From: Acidimicrobiaceae bacterium
GTDB lineage: Bacteria; Actinomycetota; Acidimicrobiia; Acidimicrobiales; RAAP-2
Assembly: GCA_003164095.1 (NCBI GenBank)
Contig: PLRX01000093.1
Location: 1-42,979, forward strand
Length of the DNA stretch: 42,979 nucleotides
Direction: 5' to 3'
A model generated the notes under the pieces. The model searched no databases and was not told the DNA's origin. It saw only the letters and a list, made by a program, of their open reading frames with translations. Position 1 is the first letter of the stretch, and the number at the start of each line of letters is the position of its first letter. Position numbers and translations under genes: made by a program. Positions 4,678 to 40,765 of the stretch are shown here, one piece after another.

Positions 4678-5364
4678 TCAGGAGGGCTCGGTCACCAGGG
4701 CGGAGCGCAGCAGCTCCAGGATCTCGTTGCGGCGGCGCACGAGCGACCGTGCCGTCGGCTCCTCGCCGAAGGCACGCAGCACCTCCACCTCGGTCAGCAT
4801 GCCGATCACGGTGGAGTAGATGGCCAGCAGGAGCAGTCGCGGGTCGTGGCGCCGCATGTGTCCGGCGTCCATCTCCGATTCGAGGAAGCCGGTGGCGCGC
4901 TGCACCAACGGCTCGACCGCGGTGACGAACCGGGTGGCTGCAGGTGTGCCCAGCCGGCCCATCTCGCGCACCAGGCCGAGCAGCTCGGGACGGCGTGCCG
5001 CCAGACGGAACACCGACCGGACCACGGCCTCGACCCGGGACCACCCCGTACCGGCCGCGGCCAACGACTCCTCGAGTGCCGCCGACAGCTCCACCGCGCT
5101 CCGGTCGATAACGGCCTCGAGCAGTACCTCCTTGCTCGGGAACCAGTAGAGGATCGTCTGCTTGCGGATGGCGAGGCCCACAGCGAGGGCGTCGAGCGAC
5201 GAGGCCTCGTAGCCCCGTGTGGCGAACGAGGCGAGTGCGGCGTCCAGGATCCGTTCGGAGGTGGAGGTGCCCTCGGCGTCGGTCCGCCCGCCGACCGGCA
5301 CGGGCCGTGGCCGGGTGCGGTCCCGGGCCCCGGAGGTCCCCTGTCCTGTGGTCGACCCCGTCAC
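4678..5364 (-). CDS. TetR/AcrR-family transcriptional regulator
   Basis: One-component DNA-binding regulator. The N-terminal helix-turn-helix module is clear (SERILDAALASFATRGYEASSLDALAVGLAIRKQTILYWF split around residues 36-75), including the family signature KQTILYWFPSKEVLLEAV; the rest is an alpha-helical ligand domain. The most upstream start is GTG 5364, which gives 228 residues with a 35-residue unstructured lead. A GTG at 5301 would give a more usual N-terminus. The gene is divergent from the acyl-CoA reductase operon, and a palindrome lies in the 23-bp gap, so it most likely represses that operon and itself in response to a fatty acyl or aldehyde ligand (inference). Confidence 0.9.
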   Translation of the reverse strand: MTGSTTGQGTSGARDRTRPRPVPVGGRTDAEGTSTSERILDAALASFATRGYEASSLDALAVGLAIRKQTILYWFPSKEVLLEAVIDRSAVELSAALEESLAAAGTGWSRVEAVVRSVFRLAARRPELLGLVREMGRLGTPAATRFVTAVEPLVQRATGFLESEMDAGHMRRHDPRLLLLAIYSTVIGMLTEVEVLRAFGEEPTARSLVRRRNEILELLRSALVTEPS

Positions 5365-5365: not shown

Positions 5366-5377
5366 TACCATATGGTA
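5366..5377. promoter_or_regulatory. Palindromic operator between the TetR gene and the reductase operon
   Basis: TACCATATGGTA is a perfect 12-bp palindrome in the 23-bp gap between the two divergent starts (5364 and 5388). It also contains TATGGT on both strands, which could serve as -10 elements, so a bound regulator would block both promoters. Likely leaderless or near-leaderless transcription of the 5388 gene. Confidence 0.6.
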
Positions 5378-5387: not shown

Positions 5388-7847
5388 GTGACCCGCGTCC
5401 GCGACGCCCTGGCCGGTAGGCGATTCTTCATCACCGGCGCCACCGGGTTCCTCGGGACCGCACTGGTCGAGCGCATCCTCCGCAGCATCCCGGACAGCCA
5501 GGTCGTCCTCCTCATCCGTCCCGGTCGCCGGGCGACGCCGATGCAGCGGGCCACCAAGGAGATCCTGAAGAACGACTGCTTCGACCGCCTCCGCGAGGAG
5601 CTGGGCGACGGGTTCGACGAGGCGATGGCGACCCGGGTCTCGGCCGTCGGCGGCGACGTGGCCACCGACGGCCTCGGCCTGGACGCCGGCGGCCTCGAGG
5701 CACTCTCGCACTGCGACATCGTCGTCCACTCGGCCGCCAGTGTCAGCTTCGATTCGCCGCTGGACGCCGCCGTGGAGGTCAACCTGCTCGGGCCGTCACG
5801 GGTGGCCGGCGCCATCATGGAGGCGCGTACCCTGGCCGAGGCCGACGGGCGCACGGGCCCGGCCCACTTCGTGCCGGTGTCGACGGCGTACGTCGCCAGC
5901 ACCCACCAGGGCGAGGCGAAGGAGGAGCTCCTCGACGCCAACCCGTTCACGGTGGAGGTCGACTGGCGGACCGAGGTGACCGCCGCCCGCCGCCAGCGCG
6001 GTGACACCGAGGCCGAGTCCCGCCAGCCCGAGCGGCTGGCCGGGTTCCACAAGGCCGCACGCGAGGAGCTCGGGGGCGCCGGGCTCCACCTCCTGGCCGA
6101 GCGTGCCGAACGCCTGCGCGAGGACTGGGTCAAGAAGCAGATGGTCGAGATCGGCCAGGCCCGCGCCCAGTCGCTCGGGTGGCCCGACGCCTACCCGTAC
6201 ACCAAGGCACTGGGCGAGCGGGCACTGGTCACCCAGTTCGGCGACGTCCTCCCCATCACCATCGTCCGACCGTCCATCATCGAGTCGGCCCTGGCCGAGC
6301 CACGCCCGGGCTGGATCCGGGGCTTCCGGATGGCCGAGCCGATCATCATCTCGTACGCCCGGGGGCTCCTCCGGGAGTTTCCGGGGGTGCCCGAGGGCGT
6401 CACCGACGTGATTCCCGTCGACCTGGTGGTGGCCGCCATCATCGCCGTGTCCGGCGACGCGCTGGCATCCGCTGCGTCCGACGACCCGGCGGACGCCTAC
6501 GGCGGCCCGTCCGTGTACCACGTGGCCTCCGGCGTCCGGAACCCGTTCCGCTACGGCAAGCTCGTCGAGCTCGTGACGGCCTGGTTCCAGGAGCATCCGG
6601 TCTACGACCAGGACGGGCAGCCCATCGTGGTGCCTGAGTGGTCCTTCCCGGGACGGGGGCGCGTGCAGCGCCAGCTCACCCGGGCATCCAAGGCGATGTC
6701 GCTGGCCGAGCGGGTCGTCGGATCGCTGCCGATCCGGGGCAAGCAGGCCGAGTGGATGGCCGCACTCGAGGAGCAGCACCTGCTGGCCGACCGGGCACTC
6801 GGGTACGTCGAGCTCTACGGCGCCTACACCGAGACCGACGCGCTCTACCGGGTCGACCGCCTCCTCGCCCTCTGGGACCGCATGGACGAGGACGACCGGG
6901 CCGCCTTCTGCCTCGACCCGGCGGCCATCGACTGGACCACCTACGTGCGGGAGATCCACCTCCCCTCGATCATCGAGCACGCCCGCGTGCGCACGTCGCC
7001 CGGCAAGTCGGTCAAGACCAACCGGGCCGACCGGGCCAGGAAGAACATCCTCTCCCCCGACCGCCATCTGGCCGCATTCGACCTCGAGAACACCCTCATC
7101 GCCTCCAACGTCGTCGACTCCTACGCCTGGCTGGCCTCGCGCCACCTGCCCCCCGGCGAGCGGGCGGCCTTCGTCGCCGACCTGGTGGCCGAGGCACCGC
7201 AGCTGCTGGCCCTCGACCGCCGCGACCGGGGCGACTTCCTCCGCTCCTTCTACCGCCGCTACGAGGGGGCGCCGGAGGCCCGTCTGCGTGACGACGGGTG
7301 GGACCTGTTCCACCACTTGCTGCTGGCGAAGTCGTTCCCCTCCGGTATCGCCCGGGTGCGTGCCCACCAGGCGCTCGGCCACCGGACGATCCTCATCACG
7401 GGCGCCCTCGACTTCGTGGTCGAGCCCTTCCGGCCGCTGTTCGACGAGATCGTCTGCGCCGAGCTCAGCGTGGAGGACGGCAAGTTCACGGGTCGACTCG
7501 AGACGCTGCCCCCCATCGGCGAGGCGCGGGCCCTCGTACTGGCCGACTACGCCGAGGCCGAAGGGCTCCGGCTCGAGGAGTCCATGGCCTACGCCGACTC
7601 GGCCAGTGACCTGCCCATGCTCGAGGCCGTCGGGTTCCCGGTCGCCGTCAACCCCGAGGCCAAGCTGGCCGCCATCGCCCGACGCCGCGGCTGGCACGCC
7701 GAGACCTGGCACAAGGCGGAGGGCGGCAGCCAGCCGCTGCTCCCACTCGGACCCGTCGACCGGCGGGGCGCGTCCCGCCGCGGTCGGACCAGCCCTGCGG
7801 CGCGTGCCGGACAGGCCCGCCGGACCGCTTCCGAGGCCCGGCGATGA
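5388..7847 (+). CDS. Fatty acyl-CoA reductase-like SDR fused to HAD-IB phosphatase
   Basis: An 819-residue fusion. Residues about 10-420 are an extended SDR/male-sterility NAD(P)-binding domain: Rossmann motif GATGFLG at 17-23, VVHSAASVSFDS, and catalytic Tyr269-xxx-Lys273 in YPYTK. Such domains reduce fatty acyl-CoA or acyl-ACP to aldehyde or alcohol. After a linker, residues about 560-780 form a HAD-IB domain: motif I DLENT (Asp565), motif II Thr in ILITGALD, and acidic motif IV YADSASDLPML. The second motif I acid is Glu567 rather than the usual Asp. The tail is basic and low complexity. The GTG at 5388 is the only start compatible with the Rossmann fold. It overlaps the next gene by 4 bp (ATGA). 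The fusion suggests a product that is both reduced and dephosphorylated, or a HAD domain with another role. Confidence 0.85.
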   Translation: MTRVRDALAGRRFFITGATGFLGTALVERILRSIPDSQVVLLIRPGRRATPMQRATKEILKNDCFDRLREELGDGFDEAMATRVSAVGGDVATDGLGLDAGGLEALSHCDIVVHSAASVSFDSPLDAAVEVNLLGPSRVAGAIMEARTLAEADGRTGPAHFVPVSTAYVASTHQGEAKEELLDANPFTVEVDWRTEVTAARRQRGDTEAESRQPERLAGFHKAAREELGGAGLHLLAERAERLREDWVKKQMVEIGQARAQSLGWPDAYPYTKALGERALVTQFGDVLPITIVRPSIIESALAEPRPGWIRGFRMAEPIIISYARGLLREFPGVPEGVTDVIPVDLVVAAIIAVSGDALASAASDDPADAYGGPSVYHVASGVRNPFRYGKLVELVTAWFQEHPVYDQDGQPIVVPEWSFPGRGRVQRQLTRASKAMSLAERVVGSLPIRGKQAEWMAALEEQHLLADRALGYVELYGAYTETDALYRVDRLLALWDRMDEDDRAAFCLDPAAIDWTTYVREIHLPSIIEHARVRTSPGKSVKTNRADRARKNILSPDRHLAAFDLENTLIASNVVDSYAWLASRHLPPGERAAFVADLVAEAPQLLALDRRDRGDFLRSFYRRYEGAPEARLRDDGWDLFHHLLLAKSFPSGIARVRAHQALGHRTILITGALDFVVEPFRPLFDEIVCAELSVEDGKFTGRLETLPPIGEARALVLADYAEAEGLRLEESMAYADSASDLPMLEAVGFPVAVNPEAKLAAIARRRGWHAETWHKAEGGSQPLLPLGPVDRRGASRRGRTSPAARAGQARRTASEARR

Positions 7848-9082
7848 AGGCACTGGTGGTCGAGCGCAACCTGCCGCGTTTCGCCGCCTCGCGGGTCGCG
7901 TCCCTGCTCGGGTCCGGTAGAGGGGCGGGCATCGGCCCGGTGCAGCTGCTCGACGCCGAGGCACCGGACCGTCCCGGCACCGACTGGTACCCCCTGCGCC
8001 CACTGCTGTCGGGCATCTGCGGGTCCGACCTGGCCACCCTCGACGGCCGCACCTCCCGCTACTTCCAGGACCTGGTCAGCTTCCCCTTCGTGCCCGGCCA
8101 CGAGGTCGTCGGCGTACTTGACGAGGGTGGCGCCGACTTCGCCGGGCGCGAGCTCGCGCCCGGCACCCGGGCGGTCATCGAGCCGGTCCTGGGTTGCGCC
8201 ACCCGGCACATCCACCCGCTCTGCCCCCGGTGCGGCTCCGGCCACACCGGGCTGTGCAGCAACCTCGCATTCGGCGCCCTCGAGCCGGGTCTCCAGACGG
8301 GCTTCTGCACCGACACCGGGGGTGGGTGGTCGACGGCGCCGCTGATGGCCCACACCAGCCAGCTGCACGCCGTGCCCGACGCCCTCTCGGACCAGGACGC
8401 GGTGATGATCGAGCCCACGGCGTGCGCCGTCCACGCCGCCCTCTCGGCACAGGTCGCCGACGGCGACCTGGTCGCCGTGGTCGGGGCCGGGACGCTCGGG
8501 CTGGCGACCATCGCCACCCTTCACTCGCTCGTGCGCCCTTCGGTGCCGTGCACCGTGGTCGTCGGAGCCAAGCACGCCCGTCAGCGCGAGCTCGCTGCGT
8601 CGTTGGGTGCCGACCACGTGGTGCCGCCCGACCAGCTGGCCCGCACCGTGCGCCGCCAGGCCGGGTCGCTGGTGCTGGCAGGACGGCTCACCGAGGGTGC
8701 CGACGTGGTCTTCGACTGCGTGGGCAGTGCCGCTTCCCTCACCGAGGCACTGTCCATGGTGCGACCGCGAGGCAAGGTGGTCCTGGTGGGCATGCCCGGC
8801 AAGGTGTCGGTGGACCTCGCCCCGCTGTGGCACCGGGAGCTGACGCTGGTCGGCGCCTACGCCTACGGCAACGAGACTCCCCCCGGGGCGGGCGAGCCCG
8901 ACCGCCGCAGCTTCGAGCTGGCCATCGACCTGGTAGGCACCGCCTCGCTCGGTCAGCTGGTATCGGCCCTCTACCCTCTCGAGCGCTACGAGGAGGCCCT
9001 GGTCCACGCCGGGGCCGCCGGCCGCCGGGGTGCGGTCAAGGTGGCCTTCGACCTCCGCAACCCGAAAGGACGCTCCCGATGA
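7844..9082 (+). CDS. Zinc-dependent alcohol dehydrogenase (MDR superfamily)
   Basis: Medium-chain dehydrogenase of 412 residues. Catalytic zinc ligands are recognisable in SGICGSDLATL (Cys) and VPGHEVVG (His-Glu). Structural-zinc cysteines are in HPLCPRCGSGHTGLCSN, although the spacing is tighter than the classical four-Cys lobe. The Rossmann motif VVGAGTLGLATIATL precedes a DVVFDCVG segment. It should interconvert an alcohol and an aldehyde or ketone with NAD(P). The start ATG overlaps the stop of the acyl-CoA reductase fusion (ATGA), and its own stop overlaps the next ATG in the same way, so the three are translationally coupled. In context it may act on the fatty aldehyde or alcohol made by its neighbour (inference). 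Confidence 0.88.
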   Translation: MKALVVERNLPRFAASRVASLLGSGRGAGIGPVQLLDAEAPDRPGTDWYPLRPLLSGICGSDLATLDGRTSRYFQDLVSFPFVPGHEVVGVLDEGGADFAGRELAPGTRAVIEPVLGCATRHIHPLCPRCGSGHTGLCSNLAFGALEPGLQTGFCTDTGGGWSTAPLMAHTSQLHAVPDALSDQDAVMIEPTACAVHAALSAQVADGDLVAVVGAGTLGLATIATLHSLVRPSVPCTVVVGAKHARQRELAASLGADHVVPPDQLARTVRRQAGSLVLAGRLTEGADVVFDCVGSAASLTEALSMVRPRGKVVLVGMPGKVSVDLAPLWHRELTLVGAYAYGNETPPGAGEPDRRSFELAIDLVGTASLGQLVSALYPLERYEEALVHAGAAGRRGAVKVAFDLRNPKGRSR

Positions 9083-10668
9083 GCCCCAGGCCCGGATTCG
9101 TGCTCGACGTCGACAGTTCGACGCCACCCACCCTGTTCTGGCAGGGCGAGCGCTTCACCCTGGAGAAGCTGCCCGAGGGGAGCCGGGTCATCTACGCGCC
9201 CGAGCCCATCGACCCGCTGTCCGACCCCCAGGCCGCCATCCGACACGCGCTCAACCACCCGCTGGGCGACCAGGAGCCGCTGCCGGCGCTGCTGCGTGCC
9301 GGCATGAAGCTGACGATCGCGTTCGACGACATCTCGCTGCCACTGCCCCCCATGGAGCGGCCGGACATCCGTCAGCTGGTGATCGAACAGGTCCTGGACA
9401 TGGCGGCGGAGGCCGGTGTCGACGACGTCGAGCTCATCGTGGCCCTCGCACTCCACCGTCGCATGACCGAGCCGGAACTGCGCCACGCCATCGGCGACCG
9501 CGTCTACGACGCCTTCGCGCCGAACGGCCTGCTGACCCAGCACGACGCCGAGGACCCCGACAACCTGCTCCACCTGGGGCAGACCGATCAGGGCGAGGAC
9601 GTGGAGATCAACAAGCGTGCCGCCGAGTCCGACCTGCTGGTGTACGTCAACATCAACCTGGTGGCCATGGACGGTGGCCACAAGAGCGTCGCCACCGGTC
9701 TCGCCAGCTACAAGAGCCTGCGCCACCACCACAACCCCGAGACCATGCGGAAGTCCAAGTCCTTCATGGACCAGCACCGCTCCGAGCTCCACTCGGCGAA
9801 CTGGCGCATGGGCCGCCTCATCAGGGAGTGCGGCGTCAACGTGTTCCAGATCGAGACGACGCTGAACAACGACACCTTCCCGGGGGCGTTCCAATTCCTG
9901 CAGAAGCGCGAGTGGGAGTGGAAGGCCAAGGACCGCCTCGCCTACGTGGCGTCGTCGTCGGCGCTCGACCGGGTGCCGGCCAAGCATGCTCGTCGGATCT
10001 TCCACTCGGTCAAGGCCCCCCACCGGATGACGTCGGTGCAGGCCGGCGAGGTCGAGGCGGTCCACGCCGTCACCACGGCCAACGTGTGGGAGCAGCAGGG
10101 CGTGGTGGTGGAGGGCCAGACCGACATCCTGACCATGGGGCTCCCCTACATCAGTCCCTACAACGTCAACTCGATCCTCAACCCGATCCTGGTGGCCTGC
10201 CTCGGGCTCGGCTACTTCTTCAACCTCTACCGGGGCAAGCCGCTGGTGCGCGAAGGCGGCGTGCTGATCATGACCCATCCCACCCCGCGGGAGTTCAACC
10301 CGGTGCACCACCCGAGCTACATCGACTTCTTCGAGCAGGTGCTGAGCGAGACGACGGACCCGAACATCATGTCGGAACAGTTCGAGGAGGGGTTCGCCAC
10401 CGATCCCTGGTACGTCCACCTCTACCGGACCGGCCACGCCTACCACGGGGTGCATCCCTTCTACATGTGGTACTGGTGCGCCCACGCCCTGGAGCACCTC
10501 GGCGCCGTCATCATCGTGGGTGGCGATCCGAAGGCCGTCCACCGCCTCGGCTTCCGGGCCGCGTCCACCCTGGCCGACGCGCTGGAGATGGCCCGGGACG
10601 TGGTGGGCACCTCCCCCACCCTGACGCACCTCCACGCACCGCCGCTCCTGATGGCCGATGTCCAGTGA
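9079..10668 (+). CDS. LarA-like protein (lactate racemase N-terminal domain, DUF2088)
   Basis: Homologue of the nickel-pincer enzyme LarA, 529 residues and thus longer than lactate racemases (about 420-430). Family signatures are KLTIAFDDISLPLPPM, ALALHRRMTEPEL with His126 (equivalent by eye to LarA His108), GGHKSVATGLASYK with Lys202 (equivalent to the cofactor-bearing Lys184), and LRHHHNPETM with His residues 216-218 (equivalent to Ni-binding His200). The segment before GGHK reads YVNINLVAMD where LarA has the second catalytic His, so that residue seems absent. No larB, larC or larE cofactor genes are in the window. Translationally coupled to the dehydrogenase. Likely substrate is a 2-hydroxy acid or related lipid intermediate, but this is not shown. 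Confidence 0.82.
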   Translation: MSPRPGFVLDVDSSTPPTLFWQGERFTLEKLPEGSRVIYAPEPIDPLSDPQAAIRHALNHPLGDQEPLPALLRAGMKLTIAFDDISLPLPPMERPDIRQLVIEQVLDMAAEAGVDDVELIVALALHRRMTEPELRHAIGDRVYDAFAPNGLLTQHDAEDPDNLLHLGQTDQGEDVEINKRAAESDLLVYVNINLVAMDGGHKSVATGLASYKSLRHHHNPETMRKSKSFMDQHRSELHSANWRMGRLIRECGVNVFQIETTLNNDTFPGAFQFLQKREWEWKAKDRLAYVASSSALDRVPAKHARRIFHSVKAPHRMTSVQAGEVEAVHAVTTANVWEQQGVVVEGQTDILTMGLPYISPYNVNSILNPILVACLGLGYFFNLYRGKPLVREGGVLIMTHPTPREFNPVHHPSYIDFFEQVLSETTDPNIMSEQFEEGFATDPWYVHLYRTGHAYHGVHPFYMWYWCAHALEHLGAVIIVGGDPKAVHRLGFRAASTLADALEMARDVVGTSPTLTHLHAPPLLMADVQ

Positions 10669-10704
10669 GCGCGTCGCAGGGCCTGCGGCGATGAGAGGGG
10701 CACG

Positions 10705-11742
10705 ATGAGGAAGGTGCACGGCACCTCGCGGATCCTGCGTCCCCGCCGGGCCGTGCGGACAGACGCCACCCTGGGTGCAGAGGCAGCCGGAGGGGGACGC
10801 TCGAGGACGTTGCGCCCGTCGGCGCTGGTGGCCCGGGCCGGACGCAGCCGCTTCCCGCTGGCCGCGCCGACGTGGCCCGGCTCGGTCCCCCGACCGGCCC
10901 CCGAGCCCGAGCTGGGTGTCCACTACGACACCGCGTGGTCCCGCCGGTATCCCGTCCGACTGGCCCGCGCCGTAGTGCTCGACAATGTCACGCGGCCGCT
11001 CGCCCGGGCCATCGCATCGCCCCAGCTGCGCGGCGAGGAGCAGTTGGTCGACGTCGAGGCGCCGGTCATCTTCGCCGCCAACCACGCCAGCCACATCGAC
11101 ACCCCACTCCTGCTGGCCTGCCTTCCGCTGCGGTTCCGGCACCGCACGGTGGTGGCGGCCGCCGCCGACTACTTCTTCGACCGGCGGTGGAAGGCCGACA
11201 CGTTCTCCTTCCTCCTCGGAGCCATCCCCATTGAGCGCACCAAGGTCAACCGACGGTCCGCCGAGCTGGCCGCCGAGCTCCTGGCCGACGACTGGAACCT
11301 CGTGATCTTTCCCGAGGGCGGGCGGTCCCCCGACGGGTGGGCACAGGAGTTCCGCGGCGGGGCCGCCTACCTGGCGTCGCGCACCGGTCGACCGGTCGTC
11401 CCCGTCCACCTCGACGGGACACGCCACATCCTCCCCAAGGGCAGCGGCACCGTCAGGCGGACCCGGACCACCGTCACCTTCGGAACACCCCTGTGGCCGG
11501 CCGAGGGCGAGGACGCCCGCAAGTTCAGCGCCCGCATCGAGGCCGCCGTCGCCACCCTGGCCAACGAGTCCTCCACCGACTGGTGGACGGCCCGCAAGCA
11601 GGCCGCTGCCGGCACGACCCCGTCCCTCCAGGGCCCCGAGGTGGCGCCGTGGCGGCGGGCCTGGGCGCTCGACCCGGCACCCGACCGGTCCGAGGCCATC
11701 GACGTCGAGGGCAACGACTGGCCGAGGCGGTCGAGGGACTGA
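10705..11742 (+). CDS. PlsC-type lysophospholipid/glycerol-3-phosphate acyltransferase
   Basis: Membrane-associated acyltransferase of 345 residues that transfers a fatty acyl group to a glycerolipid or related alcohol. Motif I NHASHIDTP carries the catalytic His and Asp; motif II region is FDRRWKADTFSFLLGAIPIERTK, split by a hydrophobic patch; motif III is VIFPEGGRSPDG; motif IV is VPVHLDGT. A 95-residue N-terminal extension rich in Arg and Pro precedes the domain. The ATG at 10705 follows a purine-rich GAGAGGGG ribosome site and lies 36 bp after the LarA-like stop. An ATG at 10691 gives only a 5-codon frame. Last gene of the operon; converges on the gene at 11761 with an 18-bp gap. Confidence 0.87.
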   Translation: MRKVHGTSRILRPRRAVRTDATLGAEAAGGGRSRTLRPSALVARAGRSRFPLAAPTWPGSVPRPAPEPELGVHYDTAWSRRYPVRLARAVVLDNVTRPLARAIASPQLRGEEQLVDVEAPVIFAANHASHIDTPLLLACLPLRFRHRTVVAAAADYFFDRRWKADTFSFLLGAIPIERTKVNRRSAELAAELLADDWNLVIFPEGGRSPDGWAQEFRGGAAYLASRTGRPVVPVHLDGTRHILPKGSGTVRRTRTTVTFGTPLWPAEGEDARKFSARIEAAVATLANESSTDWWTARKQAAAGTTPSLQGPEVAPWRRAWALDPAPDRSEAIDVEGNDWPRRSRD

Positions 11743-12135: not shown

Positions 12136-12957
12136 TCAGCGTGCCACCCGCACCCGACGGCCCAGGCCCCGCCAACCGCGGCCACCCGCACGGTCGACCG
12201 CCTCCAGCCGCTCGGCCCGCAGGGCCAACTCCTCATGGTCGTCGAGCGGCTCGAGGGGGACCCCGGTGCCCTCCGGTGCGTCGGAAGGGGCCAGTACCCA
12301 ACCGAGCAGGAGGTCGGCCAGCGCGGTGTTACGGGCCAGCACCGGTCCGTGCAGGTAGGTGCCGAGCACCCGTCCGGACCAGGCGCCCTCGGTGCCGTCG
12401 CCCCCGCCGTTGCCCACCCCGCGCTCCACCCGGGCCAGCGTGTGCGCGCCCGGGCCGACGACCGACACCCCAGCGTGGTTCTCGAAGCCGGTCAGCCGCG
12501 GCAGGTGTCCACCCGTCGCCATGCGTGGCGCCTGCGGGGTGGGCGTGGCCACGAGCTCGCCCACGGCACGCTTCCCTGTCCCCTTGGCCGTCGTCAGGTC
12601 GAGCAGCCCGACGCCCTGCTGGATCCGGTCGGCACTGTCCGGGAACGTGGTGCCGATCACCTGGAAACCGGCGCACACCCCGAGGACGACGGCGCCCTCG
12701 GCCACCCGGGCAGCAAGGGTCCCCTCCTCGAGGAGGGTGGTGGCGGCCCGCGCCTGAGGGCCGTCCTCGCCACCCCCGATCGAGTACAGGTCGGCAGTCG
12801 GCAGCGGCCGGTCCGAGAGCGCCTGGACGAGGTCGACGTCGATGCCGCGCCAGGCGGCCCGGCGGGCGAGGATCACCCCGTTGCCGCCGTCCCCGTAGGT
12901 ACCGAGGAGGTCGGGGTAGACCACCGCTATGGTCAGCCGGCGGCCGCGCACGCTCAC
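12136..12957 (-). CDS. gatD: Lipid II isoglutaminyl synthase, glutamine amidotransferase subunit GatD
   Basis: Class I glutaminase subunit that supplies ammonia to MurT for amidation of the D-glutamate of lipid II to D-isoglutamine, in the cytoplasm at the inner face of the membrane. Catalytic Cys95 sits in VLGVCAGFQVIG and the catalytic His in GTYLHGPVLARN, as in CobB/CobQ-type amidotransferases. The start GTG (12957) overlaps the murT stop (GTGA); the longer frame beginning at 13182 lies inside murT and reads as Arg-rich non-coding sequence. 273 residues, normal for GatD. Identification is strengthened by the directly overlapping murT. Confidence 0.93.
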   Translation of the reverse strand: MSVRGRRLTIAVVYPDLLGTYGDGGNGVILARRAAWRGIDVDLVQALSDRPLPTADLYSIGGGEDGPQARAATTLLEEGTLAARVAEGAVVLGVCAGFQVIGTTFPDSADRIQQGVGLLDLTTAKGTGKRAVGELVATPTPQAPRMATGGHLPRLTGFENHAGVSVVGPGAHTLARVERGVGNGGGDGTEGAWSGRVLGTYLHGPVLARNTALADLLLGWVLAPSDAPEGTGVPLEPLDDHEELALRAERLEAVDRAGGRGWRGLGRRVRVAR

Positions 12958-14270
12958 AGCGCCCGACGCAGGTCGGCGAAGGCGGTGTAGTTGCCGAGGA
13001 ACTCGATCGGCGCGCCGTCGGGCGAATGGGTGGCGGCGTGGTCGATTGCGGACACCGGGCCGTCGACGACCGCGTGCTCCACACCGCCGTAGCGGAGGCG
13101 CACCGCCAGGTCGAGCCGCCGCTCCCCCGTCGCCACCACGGTGCGGCCCACCAGCCGCTCGAAGGGGACGTCCCACAGCCACGACGTGTCGAAGCCGTCG
13201 GCGGTCCGGGCATTGACCGACAGCACCACCTGGTCGTCCGGGTCAGCCGTCTCGTCGAGCAGGTCGAAGATGGCGGTCCACCCGGCCGGATTCTTGGCCA
13301 GGAGGAGGCGCACCGGGTGCCCGGCACGGGCCACGGTGGAGAACCGGCCGGCGACCTCGGTCACCCCGTCGAGGCGCCCCAGTGCGGTGCCGACGTCCCC
13401 CTCGCCCACTGCGCCGAGCATCGGTGCCGCAGCCATCGCGGCCATACCGGCGTTCGCCCGGTTGAAGGCTCCGGGCAGGCCGATGCGAATCGGATGGTGC
13501 GTGCCGTCGGCAAGCACCAGCTCGTCGTCTGCCACCTCGGCCGCCACCTCGGGCCGGGCGAAGTCGCACCGGTCGCAGGCCCAGCGGCCGTCGTCGGCGA
13601 AGTCGATGCGCCCGCCGCACGAGGGGCACCCCACGGCATCGTCGTGCCACACCTGCCCGGCACCGACCCACGTCACTTCCGGGGCCGTGCCCGCCGCCCA
13701 GGCCACCATCGGGTCGTCGGCATTGGCCACCACGATCGTGCCGGCGTGGCCCTCCTCCGGCGCCGTCAGCCCGGCCAACGCTGCCCGCCACCGGTCGACG
13801 AGCATCCGCACCTCGCTGATGCGGTCGAGCTGGTCGCGTGACAGGTTGAGCAGCACCACCACCTCGGGAGCCGACTCGACGATGCACCGGCCGAGGTAGC
13901 CCTCGTCGACCTCGAGTACCGCGACGCCGGCATGCGGAGCGCCGACGAGGGCGGCCACGTGACCGGCCGGCATGTTGGCGCCGGTGTCGTTGCTCACCAC
14001 GTCGGCGACGCCGCCGGACAGTGCGGCGGCCAGCAGGCGGGTGGTGGTGGTCTTGCCGTTGGTGCCCGTCACCAGGGCGACGCGTCGCCCGGCTGCGAGC
14101 GTCGCCAGCAGGCCCGGGTCCACGAGGAGTCCGGCACGACCCCCGGCCACGGTCCCGCTGCCCCGACCGAGGGCCCGGGACAGCCGGTTGACGCCCGAGA
14201 CGGCGGCGGACGCCACGGCGGCCCGCGTCGTACGCGGGCGGGCGGCGGAGGGGCTGACCCGGACCGTCAC
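12954..14270 (-). CDS. murT: Lipid II isoglutaminyl synthase, Mur ligase-like subunit MurT
   Basis: ATP-dependent Mur-ligase-family subunit that activates the glutamate carboxylate of lipid II for amidation by GatD. The P-loop is VTGTNGKTTTTRL (about residues 68-79). A four-cysteine zinc ribbon, CPSCGG then ACDRCDF (about residues 213-236), is inserted in the central domain as is usual for MurT. The C-terminal DUF1727 domain has NPAGWTAIFDLLDE. The GTG at 14270 overlaps the stop of the HAD-PlsC gene; 438 residues fits the family. The stop overlaps the gatD start. The pair is found mainly in Gram-positive bacteria that amidate their peptidoglycan. Confidence 0.94.
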   Translation of the reverse strand: MTVRVSPSAARPRTTRAAVASAAVSGVNRLSRALGRGSGTVAGGRAGLLVDPGLLATLAAGRRVALVTGTNGKTTTTRLLAAALSGGVADVVSNDTGANMPAGHVAALVGAPHAGVAVLEVDEGYLGRCIVESAPEVVVLLNLSRDQLDRISEVRMLVDRWRAALAGLTAPEEGHAGTIVVANADDPMVAWAAGTAPEVTWVGAGQVWHDDAVGCPSCGGRIDFADDGRWACDRCDFARPEVAAEVADDELVLADGTHHPIRIGLPGAFNRANAGMAAMAAAPMLGAVGEGDVGTALGRLDGVTEVAGRFSTVARAGHPVRLLLAKNPAGWTAIFDLLDETADPDDQVVLSVNARTADGFDTSWLWDVPFERLVGRTVVATGERRLDLAVRLRYGGVEHAVVDGPVSAIDHAATHSPDGAPIEFLGNYTAFADLRRAL

Positions 14271-15649
14271 GCGGAGGGGCGCGTGGCGGCCAGTTCCTCG
14301 TCGGTGGGGACGTGCGGCTGGCGTGCCTCGTCGGGCAGCAGGTCGGCGACGGCGTCCAGGAGCGTGCGCGTATCGGCCACCGCGTCGGTCAGGCCGAGGT
14401 CGACCGGTGGTCCGACGGTGACCGTCACCCGCGGCGGGTGCTGCAGGCTCGTGACGTTCGGCACCTTGGAGGAGCGGGGCCACACCTTCTCGGTGCCCCA
14501 CAGGCCGATCGGGACGACCGGTGCGCCGGTGTCGGCCGCCAGGCGGGCCGCCCCGGTCTTGCCATGGAGGACAGGGTCGAAGAAGGCATCGCCACGGGGA
14601 ATGGTCCCCTGGGGAAGGACGATCACGGCCTCACCCGCATGGAGGGCCGCTGTGGCCCTGCGCATGGGGTCACCCGAGCCGCTCCCCCGGTCCACCGGGA
14701 TCCCGCCGAGCGCACGGGAGATCTGACCGACCACCGGCGCGTCGAACAGCTCCTGCTTGCCCATGAAGCGGACGGGACGGCCGAGGCGGGCGGCCACGAT
14801 GGCCAGAGCTGCGACGTCGAAGTAGCTGCGGTGGTTGGACACCAGGATCACCGGCCCGTCGTGGGGCACGTGCTCGACACCGTTGACCGTGAACCGGGCG
14901 TACGGGAACGACTCCGGCCGGACGAACGGACGCAGCAGGTAATAGGGCTCGAGGCCGATGACCGAGGGGACGCCCGGCGGGCGGTCCCAGTGCTCGAGCG
15001 GCCAGCGTCTGGCCAATGCCACCGCGGTCAGTCGGGGGTCGGCGTTGAGTGGGTGGGGGTGACCGACGGCGCCGAGCAGCGGCACGTCGAAGAAGCTGTC
15101 GGAGTAGACATGGCACTCGGCGAGGTCGATGCCCCGAACAGCCGCCCAGTCGCGGGCGGCGTCGCGCTTGTTCGTGCCCCAGATGAACCGGCCCACCAGC
15201 CGTCCCGTGTAGTGCCCGTCGATCTCCTGGTACCGGGTGGCGAGCACGTCGTCGAACCCGAGCGCGTTGGCCAGCGGGTCGACCAGGTCGTGGGGCGAGG
15301 TCGTGGCCAGTACGAGCAGGCGGCCGTCGGCCCGGTGGGCGGCCAGCTCCTCCAGCGCCCAGGGCTGCACCAGGTCGATGAGGTCCTCGACGACGGCCGC
15401 GCCGGCCGTCCGCACTCCGGCGGCCGGGCGTCCCTTCATCATCCGGGCCGCCGCCCGGGCCAGGCCCATGAAGGGGACCGTCTCGCCGAAGGAGTTGTAG
15501 AAGCCGTAGAGGTAGCGGTCGCCCGGCAGCTTGCGGCCGGCCGCCAGGACCCCGGCTGCGACCATCGCCTCCTGGAACACCGGGCCGGACGCCGACCGGA
15601 TCAGTGTGCGATCGAGGTCGACGAAGACGGCACCGGTGGCGTCGGACAT
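14267..15649 (-). CDS. HAD-IB phosphatase / PlsC acyltransferase fusion protein
   Basis: Bifunctional 460-residue protein. The N-terminal HAD domain (about 5-215) has motif I FVDLDRTLI, motif II TTSPHDL, a Lys in GTNKRDAARDW and motif IV YSDSFFDVPLL. The C-terminal lysophospholipid acyltransferase (about 240-430) has motif I SNHRSYFDV, motif II FMGKQELFDAP through GGIPVDRGS, motif III VLPQGTIPRG and motif IV PVVPIGLWG. This order is known for mycobacterial PlsC-type proteins. It would make phosphatidic acid from lysophosphatidic acid, with a phosphatase of unproven substrate. Note motif III is PQGT rather than PEGT. The ATG at 15649 is clear, and the stop overlaps the murT start, so it leads the murT-gatD operon. 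Confidence 0.9.
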   Translation of the reverse strand: MSDATGAVFVDLDRTLIRSASGPVFQEAMVAAGVLAAGRKLPGDRYLYGFYNSFGETVPFMGLARAAARMMKGRPAAGVRTAGAAVVEDLIDLVQPWALEELAAHRADGRLLVLATTSPHDLVDPLANALGFDDVLATRYQEIDGHYTGRLVGRFIWGTNKRDAARDWAAVRGIDLAECHVYSDSFFDVPLLGAVGHPHPLNADPRLTAVALARRWPLEHWDRPPGVPSVIGLEPYYLLRPFVRPESFPYARFTVNGVEHVPHDGPVILVSNHRSYFDVAALAIVAARLGRPVRFMGKQELFDAPVVGQISRALGGIPVDRGSGSGDPMRRATAALHAGEAVIVLPQGTIPRGDAFFDPVLHGKTGAARLAADTGAPVVPIGLWGTEKVWPRSSKVPNVTSLQHPPRVTVTVGPPVDLGLTDAVADTRTLLDAVADLLPDEARQPHVPTDEELAATRPSA

Positions 15650-34651: not shown

Positions 34652-37015
34652 TCACCTGACCGCACCAATTGCGGGTTCTGACCCACGTCCATAGGGAGTA
34701 GCGGAGCGTCTCGAGGCCCTGCCGGGGCGGTCAGCCAGGAGCCGATCGACCTCTCCCGCTTCGAGGGGGAGAGCGAATAGGAACCCCTGTCCGATGTCTA
34801 CGTTCTCCCTCCGGAGTCGCAGAAGTTGATCGTTGTTCTCGATTCCCTCGGCAAGAGTCTTGAGCTCCAGTACCTTCCCCAGCTGGACCAGGAGGTGGAC
34901 GATGGCGGCCGACTCTGGCGAATCGGACATCCCCGACACGAACGACTGATCGATCTTCAACACGTCGATCGGGAACTGCTGCAGGTAGGCAAGTGACGAA
35001 AAACCAGTGCCAAAGTCGTCGATCGCAATGCCGACACCGATCGCCTTGAGCAGCGTTAGACGCATGAGAGTCGCCCGGACGTCGTGCATCAGGGCGGACT
35101 CGGTGAGTTCCAGGATCAGCAGAGCGGGGTCGAAGCGACTCGCCACGACAGCACCGCGAACCTCCTCGATGATCTGCCCCCGTTCGAGCTGGACGGCCGA
35201 GACGTTGACGGACACCGTGATCGGGCTGCCATCGTTCTGCCATGCTGCTCCCTGCCGGCACGCAGTCTCGAGTGCCCACTGTCCGACGGGAACGATGAGG
35301 CCACTTGATTCGAGTGCGGGGACGAAGTCTTCGGGCAACACGATTCCGCGCTGCGGATGACGCCATCGCAGGAGCGCCTCGACGCCGATGAGGTCTCCGG
35401 TCACGAGATCGACTGTGGGCTGGTACAGCAGGAAGAACTGGTTGAATTCGAGGGCACGATGCAGATCGACCTCGAGGAGCCGGTGGTTGTTCACCGACTC
35501 CCCCATCGCGGGGCAGAAGACCACGGCACACTGCTTGCCGGCGGCCTTCGCCTGGTAGAGGGCGATGTCGGCGTCGCGCAACAGGTCCTCCGGTAGGGCC
35601 CTGTCGCCTTCGGCGATGCCGATGCTGGCGGTGACCTCCAGGGGCTCGTCGACCCCGGGAATCTCGAACGGGATGCTCAACACATCGAGGATCCGCTCCG
35701 CCAACACGGAGGGCCCGGCCAGGAGGGATCCGCCCTCCGCCAGTACGACGAACTCGTCCCCACCGAGGCGTCCGACCGTGTCCCCACCGCGCAGCGCACT
35801 CTCCAGCCTCGCCCCGACGCCGGCCAGCAGCTGGTCGCCTGCACCGTGGCCGAGCGTGTCGTTGATGTCCTTGAAGTTGTCGAGGTCGATGAACAACGCG
35901 GCCATCGGCGTCCGGTCGCGCCGGGAGCGCGCCATCATCTGGCCGGCCCGATCCAGGATCAGGGCCCGGTTGGGGAGCCCCGTGAGAGAATCGTGGAACG
36001 CCTGGTGCCGGAGGTCGTCGGTTCGCGCACGCACCAAGTCGAGGGCCCGGGAGCGACTGGTCCCCAATGCGTAGAGCAGAATCGCCAGGGACAGGCTGAT
36101 CACGATGCCACCCAGCAGGACGGACAGCCCTACCGGGTTACCGGCCAATCCGGTCCCCGCCACGGTGAACACCCGGACACTCCATCCGTTGTGGAGAATG
36201 ATCGTCATCTCCTGCGCCCCCGAGGGCGCAATTCCCGCCTTGAACATGGCATGCGTGGAGCCACTCTTGTAGTCGAAGGCGAGAGCGGTGTGCGGATGGC
36301 CCTTCAGGGCCTCAGTCAAAATGACGTTCGGGAGTACCTGCGTACCCACCCAGCCGACGAGCGCGTCCCGCCGGGCTTGGGCCGTCGTCGGCAGGACACC
36401 ACCTTGGTAGATGGGCGTGCCCACCACCAGTTCGGCGCTCCGTCCCACTCCGCCCGGGACGTACGCGCCCTGACCAGAGTCCCTCGCCGTCATGAGTGCC
36501 GGGCCCAGGCCGGCGGCACACAGGTCGAGGCCGGCCGGGGTGGTCGCCTGCCCGTTGCCCGCCTGTGACACGGTTTCGAAGCAGTAGTACGGACGATTCC
36601 CCGACGGGACGACCTGAAAGGTGCCGTCTGCAGCCAGAGGGCCCACGGGATCGGCCTCCGCACGCGCCGCGAATGCAGCCAGCTGCGAGGCGGGGACCAG
36701 CACCACCTCGCCGATCCCCTGGAGTTCGGGATAGCGCTCGAACGCGCCGATAGCGCCCGTCCATTGGAGGAACTCGGACTGGGTGGCATCCGGGTTGCCG
36801 AGCACGAAGGCGCGGACGCCCACGACGAGGTCCTGTTCATGCTGAATAGCGAGATTCAGGGTCGAGGAGATCTCCGTCGCAGTCGTGACCTGGCTCTGCC
36901 TGGCGCTCCGCTCGCCGCCTCGGACGACGGCCCAGGCTCCGAGGAGCGATCCAACGGTTCCGGCGATGAGGAGCAGGAGCGCCGCGTACACCCAGATGTG
37001 CTTGAACAGGCCCAT
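34652..37015 (-). CDS. CHASE-GGDEF-EAL cyclic-di-GMP turnover protein
   Basis: Membrane sensor that makes and/or degrades c-di-GMP. From MGLFKHIWVYAALLLLIAG (first membrane helix, residues 8-28), a periplasmic CHASE-like domain runs to about residue 295, then a second helix (VLLGGIVISLSLAILLYALG), GGDEF domain (HDSLTGLPNRALIL; FIDLDNFKDINDTLGH; intact RLGGDEF at about 417) and EAL domain (GVEALLRWRHP at about 546; DDFGTGFSSLAYL; LKIDQSFV). Both catalytic cores appear complete. I chose ATG 37015 because GGGAGG stands 7 bases ahead; ATG 37030 and 37048 are also in frame. 787 residues. It faces away from the KimA-like gene. Confidence 0.93.
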   Translation of the reverse strand: MGLFKHIWVYAALLLLIAGTVGSLLGAWAVVRGGERSARQSQVTTATEISSTLNLAIQHEQDLVVGVRAFVLGNPDATQSEFLQWTGAIGAFERYPELQGIGEVVLVPASQLAAFAARAEADPVGPLAADGTFQVVPSGNRPYYCFETVSQAGNGQATTPAGLDLCAAGLGPALMTARDSGQGAYVPGGVGRSAELVVGTPIYQGGVLPTTAQARRDALVGWVGTQVLPNVILTEALKGHPHTALAFDYKSGSTHAMFKAGIAPSGAQEMTIILHNGWSVRVFTVAGTGLAGNPVGLSVLLGGIVISLSLAILLYALGTSRSRALDLVRARTDDLRHQAFHDSLTGLPNRALILDRAGQMMARSRRDRTPMAALFIDLDNFKDINDTLGHGAGDQLLAGVGARLESALRGGDTVGRLGGDEFVVLAEGGSLLAGPSVLAERILDVLSIPFEIPGVDEPLEVTASIGIAEGDRALPEDLLRDADIALYQAKAAGKQCAVVFCPAMGESVNNHRLLEVDLHRALEFNQFFLLYQPTVDLVTGDLIGVEALLRWRHPQRGIVLPEDFVPALESSGLIVPVGQWALETACRQGAAWQNDGSPITVSVNVSAVQLERGQIIEEVRGAVVASRFDPALLILELTESALMHDVRATLMRLTLLKAIGVGIAIDDFGTGFSSLAYLQQFPIDVLKIDQSFVSGMSDSPESAAIVHLLVQLGKVLELKTLAEGIENNDQLLRLRRENVDIGQGFLFALPLEAGEVDRLLADRPGRASRRSATPYGRGSEPAIGAVR

Positions 37016-37347
37016 CGGCTTGCCTCCCATCCGCAATCCCGACGCCATACCGTGCCCGCTAGTCGGATCGGAAGTACCGGGACGCCGAAGGTACTTCGAG
37101 GGTCACGATACGGGAGCTGCCGGCGAGAAATGGGTCCATAGCTGTGGAATCGGCGCGTTCCGATCAGACCTTGAGCCCGGATCCTCGGCCTCGACACCTC
37201 TCCAGGAGTCGTCGAACCTGCGCAATCAGCTCGACAGCGACGAACTTACCTGGAGCGACAGCGAGAAGGACATGGGAGGGCACATTCGCCCCGCTATCCG
37301 TCGACGATGGAAGTGGACGGGTTCACGAAGCCCGGTCATGAGGTCGG
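37016..37347. promoter_or_regulatory. Divergent intergenic region with an 8-bp inverted repeat
   Basis: The 332-bp gap between the c-di-GMP gene and the kimA-like gene holds GAAGTACC (37071-37078) and GGTACTTC (37090-37097), a perfect inverted repeat 11 bases apart, about 60 bp upstream of the c-di-GMP gene start. It may be an operator. I looked for a c-di-AMP (ydaO-type) riboswitch upstream of the transporter and could not recognise one. No gene is evident. Confidence 0.45.
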
Positions 37348-39408
37348 ATGATGACGTCTCCAGCAGATTCAGGAACGGCTGACGGGGACCCGATCACAAC
37401 GGCAAGCACCCGCCACCGGATCACCCGCCAAGAGCCAGGAGACGGAGGCTGGTGGCAGGTACCATCGTCGGACGATGCTCGTTTCGACGGTGACGCCTGG
37501 CGAGCCACGGTGACCACCGGCGAGCGGATCCGGCGACTGGTGTTCGGCAGGGCCCTTTCATCGGACCAGGCGACTTCCGAGCAGATCACTCCGGTCGAAG
37601 GGCTCTCCGCCCTGTCCCTCGATGCACTGACTTCGGTGGCCTACGGCCCCGAGGCGATCCTGCTGGTGCTGGCCGGCGCCGGGGCAACGGCACTGCATCT
37701 CATGTTGCCGATCACGCTCGCCATCATCGGTCTCCTGGTGCTGCTCGTGATCTCCTACCGCCAGGTCATCGACGCTTACCCCCACGGTGGCGGGGCCTAC
37801 GCCGTCAGCCGGGACAACTTCGGTGCGCGCGCCAGCAAGCTCGCAGGGGCCTCGTTGATCGTCGACTACACGCTGACCGTCGCTGTCTCCATCGCCGCCG
37901 GCGTGGGACAGTTCACCTCGGCGTTTCCCTCGACCACCAGGTACACGGTTCCGATGTGCCTTGGCATCCTCTTGGTCATCACCGTGCTCAATCTCCGCGG
38001 CCTCGGCGAGGGGGCCCGGATCTTTCTCCTGCCCACCATGGTCTTCATCGTGGGACTGCTCGCGATCATCGCCATCGGCATGATCCACCCGCTCGGTCTG
38101 AATACCCCCCGGACGGGAAGATCCCTGGTCCCCGCCCACGCGGTGGAGGCCGTCAGCGTGCTATTGGTGCTCAGGGCGTTCTCGGCTGGCTGCAGCGCAC
38201 TGACCGGTGTCGAGGCGATCGCCAACGGCGTCCCGCTCTTCCGTGAGCCCCGCGTTATCCGGGCGAAGCGGACCGAGCTGCTGCTCGGCTCCATCCTGGG
38301 GGTGATGCTGCTCGGCTTGGCCCTCCTCACCGACAAGTTCCATGTGGAGCCCCGTACCGGGCAGACCGTACTGAGCCAGATCATGGTCTACGCGGTCGGC
38401 CGCCATTGGGCCTACTACATCGTGTCCCTCACCATCACGCTGGTACTCGCCCTGGCTGCCAACACATCCTTCGGCGGCCTCCCGGTCCTCACCAGTCTGT
38501 TGGCTCGCGACAACTACCTGCCGCACTTCTTCGGCCTGCGTGACAGCCGACAGGTCTTCGGCAACGGCGTCTGGGCTCTGGCCGTGTTCTCGGCGGCCCT
38601 TCTTGTCGCGGTCAGGGGGAACACCAACTCACTCATCCCCCTGTTCGCCATCGGGGTGTTCATCGGTTTCACCATGGCCCAGTCAGGCCTGGTGGTCCAC
38701 TGGCGCCGGACCCGGGAACCAGGGTGGTCCCGCAAAGCGCTCATCAACGGGATCGGTGCGGCGGTGACCGCCGTTGCGACGCTCATCTTCCTGGTATCCA
38801 AGTTCGTGGAAGGGGCGTGGGTGGTCGTCGTCGCGATCCCCCTGCTGATCGTGCTGTTCAACCGCATCGAGTCCTACTACGCACGGGCGCGCCGGGAACT
38901 CGAGACCGGCGTGATTCCGGCACCTTTGGACCCGAAGCACACCGTCGTCGTCGTCCCTGTCAATTCTGTCTCCCGGTTGACCCAACACGCCCTGTCCGAA
39001 GCGGTGTCGCTCGGCGACAAGGTGATCGCCGTCATGGTCGTATTCGACGGCGTCGAGCCAGGTCGGCCACGCACCGAGATCGAGGAGCATTGGGAGATCT
39101 GGAATCCCGGAGTTCCTCTTCGCCTCCTCCACACCAACTACGCCTCGATCGTCCGGCCAATCATGGGATTCGTCGACGAGTTGCGCACCGTGCCGGACCA
39201 GCAAGTCGTGGTGCTCATCCCGGTGGTGATCCCCGAGCGCATCCGTTATCGGCTCCTGCACAACCAGATCGACGTCGCGCTCACCTCGGCGCTGCATCGG
39301 CGCCCCGACGTGGTGGTCGCCCGCGTTCCCGTACCCGTGCGACCACCTGATCCGGATCCTGAGCCTGTCGACGGCACCGATCGCCCCGAAGAGGTCGGCG
39401 CGCCCTGA
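37348..39408 (+). CDS. KimA-like APC-superfamily potassium/amino-acid permease
   Basis: A 686-residue transporter. After a 60-residue soluble lead come about 12 membrane segments from SLDALTSVAYGPEAILLVLAGAG, through YPHGGGAYAVSRDNFGARASKLAG and LIVDYTLTVAVSIAAG, to WVVVVAIPLLIVLFN near residue 490, and a soluble C-terminal domain of nearly 200 residues with a THTVVVVPVNSV-like strand. The SVAYGPEAILLVL and YPHGGGAY motifs and overall plan resemble the K+ importer KimA (YdaO) and related permeases; an amino-acid substrate cannot be excluded. Starts at ATGATG (37348 or 37351). Confidence 0.82.
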   Translation: MMTSPADSGTADGDPITTASTRHRITRQEPGDGGWWQVPSSDDARFDGDAWRATVTTGERIRRLVFGRALSSDQATSEQITPVEGLSALSLDALTSVAYGPEAILLVLAGAGATALHLMLPITLAIIGLLVLLVISYRQVIDAYPHGGGAYAVSRDNFGARASKLAGASLIVDYTLTVAVSIAAGVGQFTSAFPSTTRYTVPMCLGILLVITVLNLRGLGEGARIFLLPTMVFIVGLLAIIAIGMIHPLGLNTPRTGRSLVPAHAVEAVSVLLVLRAFSAGCSALTGVEAIANGVPLFREPRVIRAKRTELLLGSILGVMLLGLALLTDKFHVEPRTGQTVLSQIMVYAVGRHWAYYIVSLTITLVLALAANTSFGGLPVLTSLLARDNYLPHFFGLRDSRQVFGNGVWALAVFSAALLVAVRGNTNSLIPLFAIGVFIGFTMAQSGLVVHWRRTREPGWSRKALINGIGAAVTAVATLIFLVSKFVEGAWVVVVAIPLLIVLFNRIESYYARARRELETGVIPAPLDPKHTVVVVPVNSVSRLTQHALSEAVSLGDKVIAVMVVFDGVEPGRPRTEIEEHWEIWNPGVPLRLLHTNYASIVRPIMGFVDELRTVPDQQVVVLIPVVIPERIRYRLLHNQIDVALTSALHRRPDVVVARVPVPVRPPDPDPEPVDGTDRPEEVGAP

Positions 39409-39414
39409 CGCCAG

Positions 39415-39478
39415 ATATCCTCAGGGCTGGAGAAGGCCAGGGATATGTGCCGGCAAGGGCGTCGCCCCCCCTACCGGC
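39415..39478 (+). terminator. Two adjacent hairpins after the kimA-like gene
   Basis: ATATCC (39415-39420) pairs with GGATAT (39441-39446) over an inner CTGG/CCAG stem. Next, GCCGG (39449-39453) pairs with CCGGC (39474-39478) around GGGC/GCCC. Probably the end of the kimA transcript; the second may instead lead the small-gene cluster beginning at 39506. Confidence 0.4.
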
Positions 39479-39505
39479 CATCAGCGACCGGAGTCACGGA
39501 TTGCA

Positions 39506-39781
39506 TTGTCTGGTCACGTCCGGGCCTTCGCACTTCAAAATCGCCTTGTTCTTCGCGGGGAGTGGGCTGCCGCGGTACTCCTCGGCCTGACGGCACTGCT
39601 CGTGGTCGCGTTCCGACTCATACTTCAGGGCCGCTTGCCTGAGCAGATCGGAAGGGACGGGGTTGGTTGGGGCCCAGAAGCGATCGAACAGCTGAAGGGC
39701 GACGTGGTGACAGCCAAGGAGTCGGTGGCCAGTCTTCAGCTGCAGATTGACGCGCTAGAGGCGATCGTCCGCGCAAACTAG
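39506..39781 (+). CDS. Small membrane protein with coiled-coil tail
   Basis: Not recognised. 91 residues from a TTG start: one membrane segment at about residues 20-40 (WAAAVLLGLTALLVVAFRLIL), a short Gly-rich stretch, then a helical heptad-like tail AIEQLKGDVVTAKESVASLQLQIDALEAIV. The TTG start is uncertain because no ATG or GTG is better placed. Followed 16 bp later by another small coiled-coil gene, suggesting a unit. Confidence 0.55.
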   Translation: MSGHVRAFALQNRLVLRGEWAAAVLLGLTALLVVAFRLILQGRLPEQIGRDGVGWGPEAIEQLKGDVVTAKESVASLQLQIDALEAIVRAN

Positions 39782-39797
39782 TAGAATTGGTTTCAAG

Positions 39798-40028: not shown

Positions 40029-40031
40029 AAG

Positions 40032-40567: not shown

Positions 40568-40765
40568 GAAGACGCGGCAGCGCTCAGCAGGCCCATCTCC
40601 CGTAGTTGTACTCCTGAACTTCTTCCCGTGGTGAGGCGCGGGCGGTGGTGGCTTCGGTCCGGTCGGGTGTCACGCTCACTGATCGGGGGCACCCTTGATA
40701 GATGACGCCATCGGTTCGCTTCGATTGCTCGCTCCGAAGTTGCAATGACCTGTCAAGATCATCCG

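Follow-up and report, generated by a model that had tools for sequence, protein, structure and literature searches.

A conserved actinobacterial gene set containing a LarA-like protein: a possible new pathway for unusual membrane lipids, perhaps ethers

Organization of the operon

The DNA analysed here, hereafter the window, is a stretch of 42,979 nucleotides from an Acidimicrobiaceae bacterium (Actinomycetota; assembly GCA_003164095.1, contig PLRX01000093.1, positions 1 to 42,979). It carries four consecutive genes predicted to encode a fatty acyl-CoA reductase (FAR) fused to a HAD hydrolase, an alcohol dehydrogenase (ADH), a LarA-like enzyme of the class that uses the nickel-pincer nucleotide (NPN), and a PlsC-type acyltransferase, with a TetR-family gene divergent from them. 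This gene set, which recurs in other Actinomycetota, points to a so far unrecognised way of making unusual membrane lipids, perhaps ethers. Its components are as follows.

4678-5364, minus strand: TetR-family regulator, divergent (Pfam TetR_N, 6.6e-11)
5366-5377, no strand: putative operator, the perfect palindrome TACCATATGGTA, inside the 23-bp gap between the TetR and FAR genes
5388-7847, plus strand: FAR-HAD, a fatty acyl-CoA reductase (NAD_binding_4 and Sterile-like) fused to a HAD-IB hydrolase (open reading frame, Pfam and NCBIfam)
7844-9082, plus strand: zinc-dependent medium-chain ADH (open reading frame, Pfam ADH_N and ADH_zinc_N, the latter at 2.2e-20)
9079-10668, plus strand: LarA-like NPN enzyme of the LarAH14/15/16 family, NF052592 (Lar_N 2.8e-40; 904.4 bits against a cut-off of 740)
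10705-11742, plus strand: PlsC-type glycerolipid acyltransferase (Pfam Acyltransferase, 1.4e-20)

The FAR and ADH genes and the ADH and LarA genes overlap by ATGA, and 36 bp separate the LarA gene from that of PlsC. An initial annotation made from the sequence alone had described this layout, together with the divergent TetR gene and a shared operator, and open reading frames, Pfam matches and a palindrome search all agree with it. Of 86 regions upstream of FAR, that of the window among them, 58 contain the pattern TACC-N4-GGTA; 200 rounds of mononucleotide shuffling gave a mean of 0.07 and a maximum of 1, in a comparison whose 86 regions share kinship and so are not independent. For closely related loci we used the best 80 from a scan of genome contigs (at least 80 in total), at 70-92% identity, referred to below as named loci. 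A divergent TetR gene stands upstream of FAR in 46 of the 59 named loci having enough flank, and the operator pattern is absent from 12 of the 13 named loci that lack the TetR gene, the exception being L075, which has it. Two loci (L077 and L111) possess the TetR gene with no operator pattern. The TetR protein of the window shows weak similarity, far under the cut-offs, to regulators of fatty-acid genes, FasR and FadR among them.

Conservation and linkage of the gene set

All four enzymes occur together in 57 of the 58 named loci with enough flank. Among named loci having flank on the relevant side, LarA is accompanied by ADH in 73/73, by FAR in 64/64 and by PlsC in 71/72; the single exception is L111, in which PlsC lies 9.2 kb downstream. 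Clustering of open reading frames over 45 loci (28 diverse loci picked, not randomly, from a LarA scan of the phylum, 16 named loci, and the window) recovered ADH in 44 and LarA in 44, with FAR-HAD clusters in 42 and PlsC clusters in 37, both of the latter mixed with a fused HAD-PlsC protein and shadow frames. The remaining large clusters read as shadow frames, and other real genes appeared in at most nine of the 45 loci.

A sample of 396 Actinomycetota genomes was scored for FAR-HAD at E 1e-40 or better, with two candidates scored per genome. LarA of the LarAH14 type was found in 86 (a count that leaves out LarA fragments and homologs under the family cut-off), FAR-HAD in 93, and both in 84. 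Nine genomes have FAR with no LarA above the cut-off: four of these carry LarA fragments (G194, G240, G382, G404), and in the other five (G139, G163, G354, G440, G448) the contig stops in or just past FAR or ADH. The two genomes with LarA and no FAR (G479, G485) have contigs that start inside ADH or inside FAR. No genuine exception to FAR/LarA co-occurrence was thus found among the 396 genomes, with the proviso that cut assemblies cannot prove presence, and the recurrence of the gene set across this sample is not explained by chance.

In 79 of the 84 genomes having both, FAR is upstream of LarA on one contig and in the same orientation. Their spacing is mostly one ADH-sized gap and reaches 7.7 kb in one family, here called f25. 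One true exception to linkage was found: in G164, FAR and a solitary LarA occupy separate long contigs, so that the genome still has both. The expectation that the genes would stay together in relatives therefore held, G164 excepted, and the conservation seen indicates that the four-enzyme unit is ancient. The same LarA is also present at 73-78% identity in four loci (L117, L124, L078, L122) titled Bifidobacterium breve and Acidobacteria/Acidobacteriota, titles that are probably wrong.

The LarA-like protein

The protein of the window lies above the curated cut-off for LarAH14/15/16, and its residues were equated with those of characterized LarA proteins by a sequence alignment of 108 homologs. 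The NPN ligands Lys202, His218 and Asp84 (equivalents of Lys184, His200 and Asp72) are conserved in 108/108, as is His126, the equivalent of the first catalytic histidine, His108. Canonical LarA possesses a second catalytic histidine, His174, and at this place the window protein has Asn193 (Asn in 106/108 and Cys in 2/108) in a loop that is one residue shorter. Likewise, the place of canonical Arg75 is taken by Leu in 102/108 homologs, Ile in 4/108 and Cys in 2/108; in LarA_Ip this arginine is reported to contact both the NPN phosphate and the substrate carboxylate (PMC12611868). These residue changes argue against the enzyme acting as a plain hydroxy-acid racemase. Tyr361 and His459, kept in 108/108, correspond to Tyr307 and His401 of LarA_Sp, which are described as sitting near a bound ligand of unassigned identity in that structure (PMC12611868).

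An AF2 model of the protein, built from an alignment of 50 sequences, has a mean pLDDT of 95.5. Its closest solved structure is 9q3k (Z 41.6, root-mean-square deviation 2.2, 453 aligned; Foldseek, VIA), followed by 9q3j (Z 38.1) and then by other LarA structures at Z 31.9 to 24.3; rows with Z below 8 were disregarded.

More distant LarA relatives (L158-L169, L174 and L175, at about 43% identity or less) have no adjoining FAR, ADH or PlsC, and the operon therefore marks one LarA subfamily. A plasmid search with the LarA protein returned nine records, all of them distant LarA proteins (<60% identity, none spanning 80% of the query). A sister subfamily in other Actinomycetota (L158, L162, L163; about 40% identity) has a common CoA-transferase-like open reading frame, named by reading only; two of its members, L158 and L163, also have Asn near the position of the second histidine. 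This makes a second orphan setting for LarA-like proteins.

Supply of the NPN cofactor

A nickel-pincer character had been proposed for this protein, and the genome it comes from (95.5% complete) holds all three NPN synthesis genes, each above its cut-off: larB (C110:4593-5273), larC (C110:5399-6520) and larE (C110:27124-27894). The single Lar_N match in that genome is the LarA-like protein of the window. A sample of 100 genomes of the family contains LarA in 59 (56 above the cut-off) and LarC in 61. In the "good" subset of 69 genomes the two agree throughout, with 38 having both and 31 neither, and the eight discordant genomes, with LarA only (G019, G052, G076) or LarC only (G033, G043, G054, G077, G080), are all less than 90% complete. 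Six of the 28 diverse loci (L135, L142, L144, L145, L149, L156; by Pfam for L135) carry larB, larC and larE 2.5-6 kb past the start of LarA, and none of the three was found at that place in the named loci. Because the host has larB, larC and larE, LarC agrees with LarA in occurrence, and the three genes stand beside some of the operons, the LarA-like protein very probably holds NPN.

PlsY and the f25 family

In f25, a PlsY gene (G3P_acyltransf, 8.7e-53) lies directly upstream of FAR in 10/10 loci examined (L151, L152, L154, L155, L184, L185, L188, L189, L193, L194), and the same is true of G164. The f25 loci with sequence past LarA (L151-L155) showed no PlsC next to it, PlsY was not seen in the other diverse loci examined outside f25, and PlsC accompanies the operon in most loci examined outside that family. 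One f25 genome, G140, encodes a rhodopsin that matches PDB 6kfq at all of 239 residues, which we take to be the rhodopsin of Rubrobacter xylanophilus. The family thus resembles Rubrobacteraceae, and the gene set is conserved across much of the phylum, the Rubrobacter group probably included. HGD-D (PF06050), presumably a part of the ether-forming enzyme Ger and used here as its proxy, was found in only one of 12 operon genomes searched and was absent from the window's own genome and from 5/5 f25 genomes. Rubrobacterales have dominant mixed ether/ester lipids, according to the title of one report (Sinninghe Damste 2023). Three f25 loci also have a protoglobin gene between ADH and LarA (L151:12667-13323 and L152:12204-12794 by Pfam, L194:10222-10809 by tblastn).

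FAR-HAD, ADH and PlsC

The FAR-HAD protein matches NAD_binding_4 at 8.6e-56 and HAD at 2.9e-28, with a Sterile domain match (1e-6, 29.2 bits) under its cut-off of 35.4. Its FAR part has the NAD_binding_4 fold with the catalytic Tyr-x-x-x-Lys that define the class, and its closest solved relative is PDB 7eoz, "Fatty acyl-CoA reductase" (5.1e-64, residues 5-534); the HAD-IB part matches PDB 3fvv at 6e-16. The Tyr and Lys of the YxxTK motif (91 homologs spanning it) and the HAD nucleophile Asp (93 homologs) are 100% conserved. Equally invariant are the Cys, His and Glu of the ADH motifs GICGSD, GHE and EP (n=99 to 103 homologs) and the H and D of the PlsC HxxxxD motif (97 homologs). The nearest structures to the ADH are 4ej6 and the ketose reductase 1e3j. 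In the Asp-x-Asp motif of the HAD-IB part, the first Asp is 100% conserved and the second position is Glu in 90% and Asp in 10% of 93 homologs; this D-x-E form is perhaps the mark of an altered phosphatase.

Proposed function and alternatives

We give about an even chance to the reading that this operon, under TetR control, directs synthesis of a modified membrane glycerolipid and that the NPN enzyme performs a required step; the product would most likely be a glycerophospholipid of the 1-O-alkyl-2-acyl (mixed ether/ester) type. In the order of steps that we infer, FAR-HAD and ADH would yield a fatty aldehyde or alcohol from an acyl thioester, PlsC (or, in f25, PlsY) would provide the acyl-glycerol-phosphate side, and the LarA-like protein, with NPN from LarB, LarC and LarE, would carry out a required hydride transfer on a glycerol or alkyl intermediate rather than on a free hydroxy acid. 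The initial annotation had proposed synthesis or recycling of an unusual ether, alcohol or hydroxy-fatty lipid, a view that is partly borne out: the acyltransferases agree with a glycerolipid product, and its ether nature is suggested indirectly, by the Rubrobacterales title.

It is also conceivable, with only an outside chance in our estimate, that the LarA-like enzyme itself forms the ether bond by transient oxidation, a logic used by S-adenosylhomocysteine hydrolase and here paired with an organonickel cofactor. NPN would take the C2 hydride of 1-acyl-glycerol-3-phosphate to give an enzyme-bound acyl-glycerone phosphate (the substrate of AGPS), the fatty alcohol from FAR and ADH would displace the acyl group at C1, and return of the hydride to the same face of C2 would yield 1-O-alkyl-glycerol-3-phosphate for PlsC. 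One acid/base histidine would be enough and would avoid racemisation at C2, and loss of the carboxylate-binding arginine would be expected. Nearly all of the gene products, the HAD part apart, would have a place in such a mechanism, which would also account for the single histidine.

Several points weigh against an ether-lipid operon with a required NPN step. FAR and acyltransferase activities of the myxobacterial elb proteins are reported as not detected in vitro (PMC9131029), and elbD homologs are described in bacteria without detected ether lipids (PMC11868695), so that gene content is a weak guide to the product. Pfam found neither the acyl-CoA synthetase (ACS) nor the acyl carrier protein (ACP) domain of ElbD in the operon. 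The nearest solved LarA relatives are tied to carbohydrate metabolism by their authors (PMC12611868), and Acidimicrobiia are not mentioned among the literature matches listed. G358 lacks an ADH gene between those of FAR and LarA, and in G164 ADH is not next to FAR. Protein distances over 83 loci are correlated (FAR-LarA r = 0.92, other pairs 0.76 to 0.88), which shows only common descent since the comparison has no species-tree control. Finally, 27 of the 41 LarA-less family genomes belong to one genus (g10), so few independent losses of LarA are represented.

Other readings of the same genes differ mainly in what the LarA-like protein would act on. It could epimerise or oxidise 2-hydroxy-fatty acids, with FAR and ADH leading to long-chain 1,2-diols or hydroxy alcohols that PlsC acylates, giving a hydroxy- or diol-lipid without an ether. 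2-Hydroxy acids are known LarA substrates (PMC11770544), and FAR, ADH and PlsC are all compatible with a diol backbone, but the carboxylate-binding arginine and the second catalytic histidine are replaced in nearly all of the homologs aligned here (by Leu in 102 and by Asn in 106), and PlsY beside FAR in f25 indicates glycerol-3-phosphate; we consider this scheme unlikely. A Frankia LarAH14 reported as inactive in seven assays adds only weak evidence against it, because none of the assays had a long-chain substrate. Still less probable, and in our view very doubtful, is inversion of C2 of glycerol phosphate or acyl-glycerol phosphate (an sn-3/sn-1 stereo-switch) before acylation. NPN enzymes do shift hydride at a secondary carbinol, a glycerol-3-phosphate-handling enzyme adjoins the operon in f25, and residues near the LarA_Sp ligand have counterparts in the invariant Tyr361 and His459. 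Inversion would, however, have to proceed with Asn where the second acid/base histidine should be, and we know of no bacterial lipids of the sn-1 type in these hosts.

Two further explanations concern the operon as a whole. It might serve only for fatty alcohols or wax-type neutral lipids, the LarA-like protein being an unrelated NPN enzyme kept by shared regulation. FAR, ADH and an acyltransferase could indeed yield alcohols and esters, and in G164 FAR is not linked to LarA. This is nevertheless distinctly unlikely given that LarA and FAR co-occur without clear exception in the 396 genomes, even where unlinked. That the operon instead breaks down alkyl lipids or hydroxylated ones, with TetR as a sensor of acyl-CoA, would accord with the reversibility of the ADH and reductase reactions and with the faint resemblance of the regulator to FasR and FadR; PlsC and PlsY are biosynthetic enzymes, however, and no conserved beta-oxidation, lipase or transport gene was seen in the unit by clustering of the 45 loci, which makes a catabolic role highly improbable.

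Neighbouring genes

A fused HAD-PlsC protein is encoded at 14267-15649 on the minus strand, 2.5 kb downstream of the operon (HAD 5.1e-29, Acyltransferase 3.3e-27), and similar HAD matches occur downstream of the operon in many named loci. Adjoining the operon, at 12136-14501 on the minus strand, is a GATase_3/MurT pair, which we take to be typical of lipid II amidation. Farther along, positions 34652-39408 hold a CHASE-GGDEF-EAL protein and an amino acid permease, and G+C falls to 0.63 at 39001-42000 from 0.70-0.74 in the first 30 kb.

Significance

No reaction is given for LarAH groups 14 and 15 in the published work consulted, and the solved single-histidine relatives are described there with only an unassigned bound ligand. 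The operon places an enzyme of the LarAH14/15 type in a pathway and narrows its candidate substrates to a few that can be tested. It is also a candidate for how aerobic Actinobacteria such as Rubrobacter, whose presumed f25 relatives returned no HGD-D match in five genomes, make ether-type membrane lipids, and under the preferred reading Acidimicrobiia are predicted to have such lipids. Should the nickel enzyme act on a lipid, the role of NPN would extend beyond hydroxy-acid isomerisation, and if it forms the ether itself it would be, to our knowledge, the first NPN enzyme with a reaction other than isomerisation.

Comparison with known systems

The operon is not described among the open-literature matches listed. 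A putative 1-O-alkyl glycerol phosphate operon, resembling another ether-lipid operon, is nonetheless said to have been proposed in Rubrobacter, in all five genomes of an earlier study, and it is possibly the same locus as the PlsY, FAR-HAD, ADH and LarA genes of f25. The initial statement that no described pathway adds a LarA protein to this set may thus be too strong.

The myxobacterial elb operon (ElbB, ElbD, ElbE) resembles the window in having a FAR-like domain, a HAD protein and an acyltransferase in one operon (PMC9131029). ElbD is recognized by FAR, ACS, ACP and acyltransferase domains together, two of which (ACS and ACP) the operon of the window lacks, and the window HAD is fused to FAR. 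The zinc-dependent ADH and the LarA-like protein have no counterpart in the elb description consulted (PMC9131029).

The window protein falls inside LarAH14/15/16 (NF052592; groups of Desguin 2020, PMC7583248), to which our analysis adds a fixed lipid operon. Groups 14 and 15 are reported to lack His174 (PMC12611868). Group 16 had been considered not to use NPN, whereas the window protein retains the NPN ligands. The Phytophthora "LarAH15" (PMC11770544) is described as a gluconate epimerase of the GntE branch, and its number seems different from group 15 of 2020. Among the closest known parallels are LarA_Sp (9q3k/9q2u) and LarA_Bw (9q3j), single-histidine NPN enzymes that have the same fold as the window protein and, like it, carry Asn in place of the second histidine, with His126, Lys202, His218, Asp84, Tyr361 and His459 all matching in the sequence alignment. 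Identity to them is 27% and 24%, respectively, and Lys76 and His306 of LarA_Sp are replaced by Leu87 and Pro360 in the window protein. Their surroundings differ as well, since the genes reported beside LarA_Sp and LarA_Bw belong to sugar metabolism (PMC12611868), whereas those beside the window protein are lipid genes.

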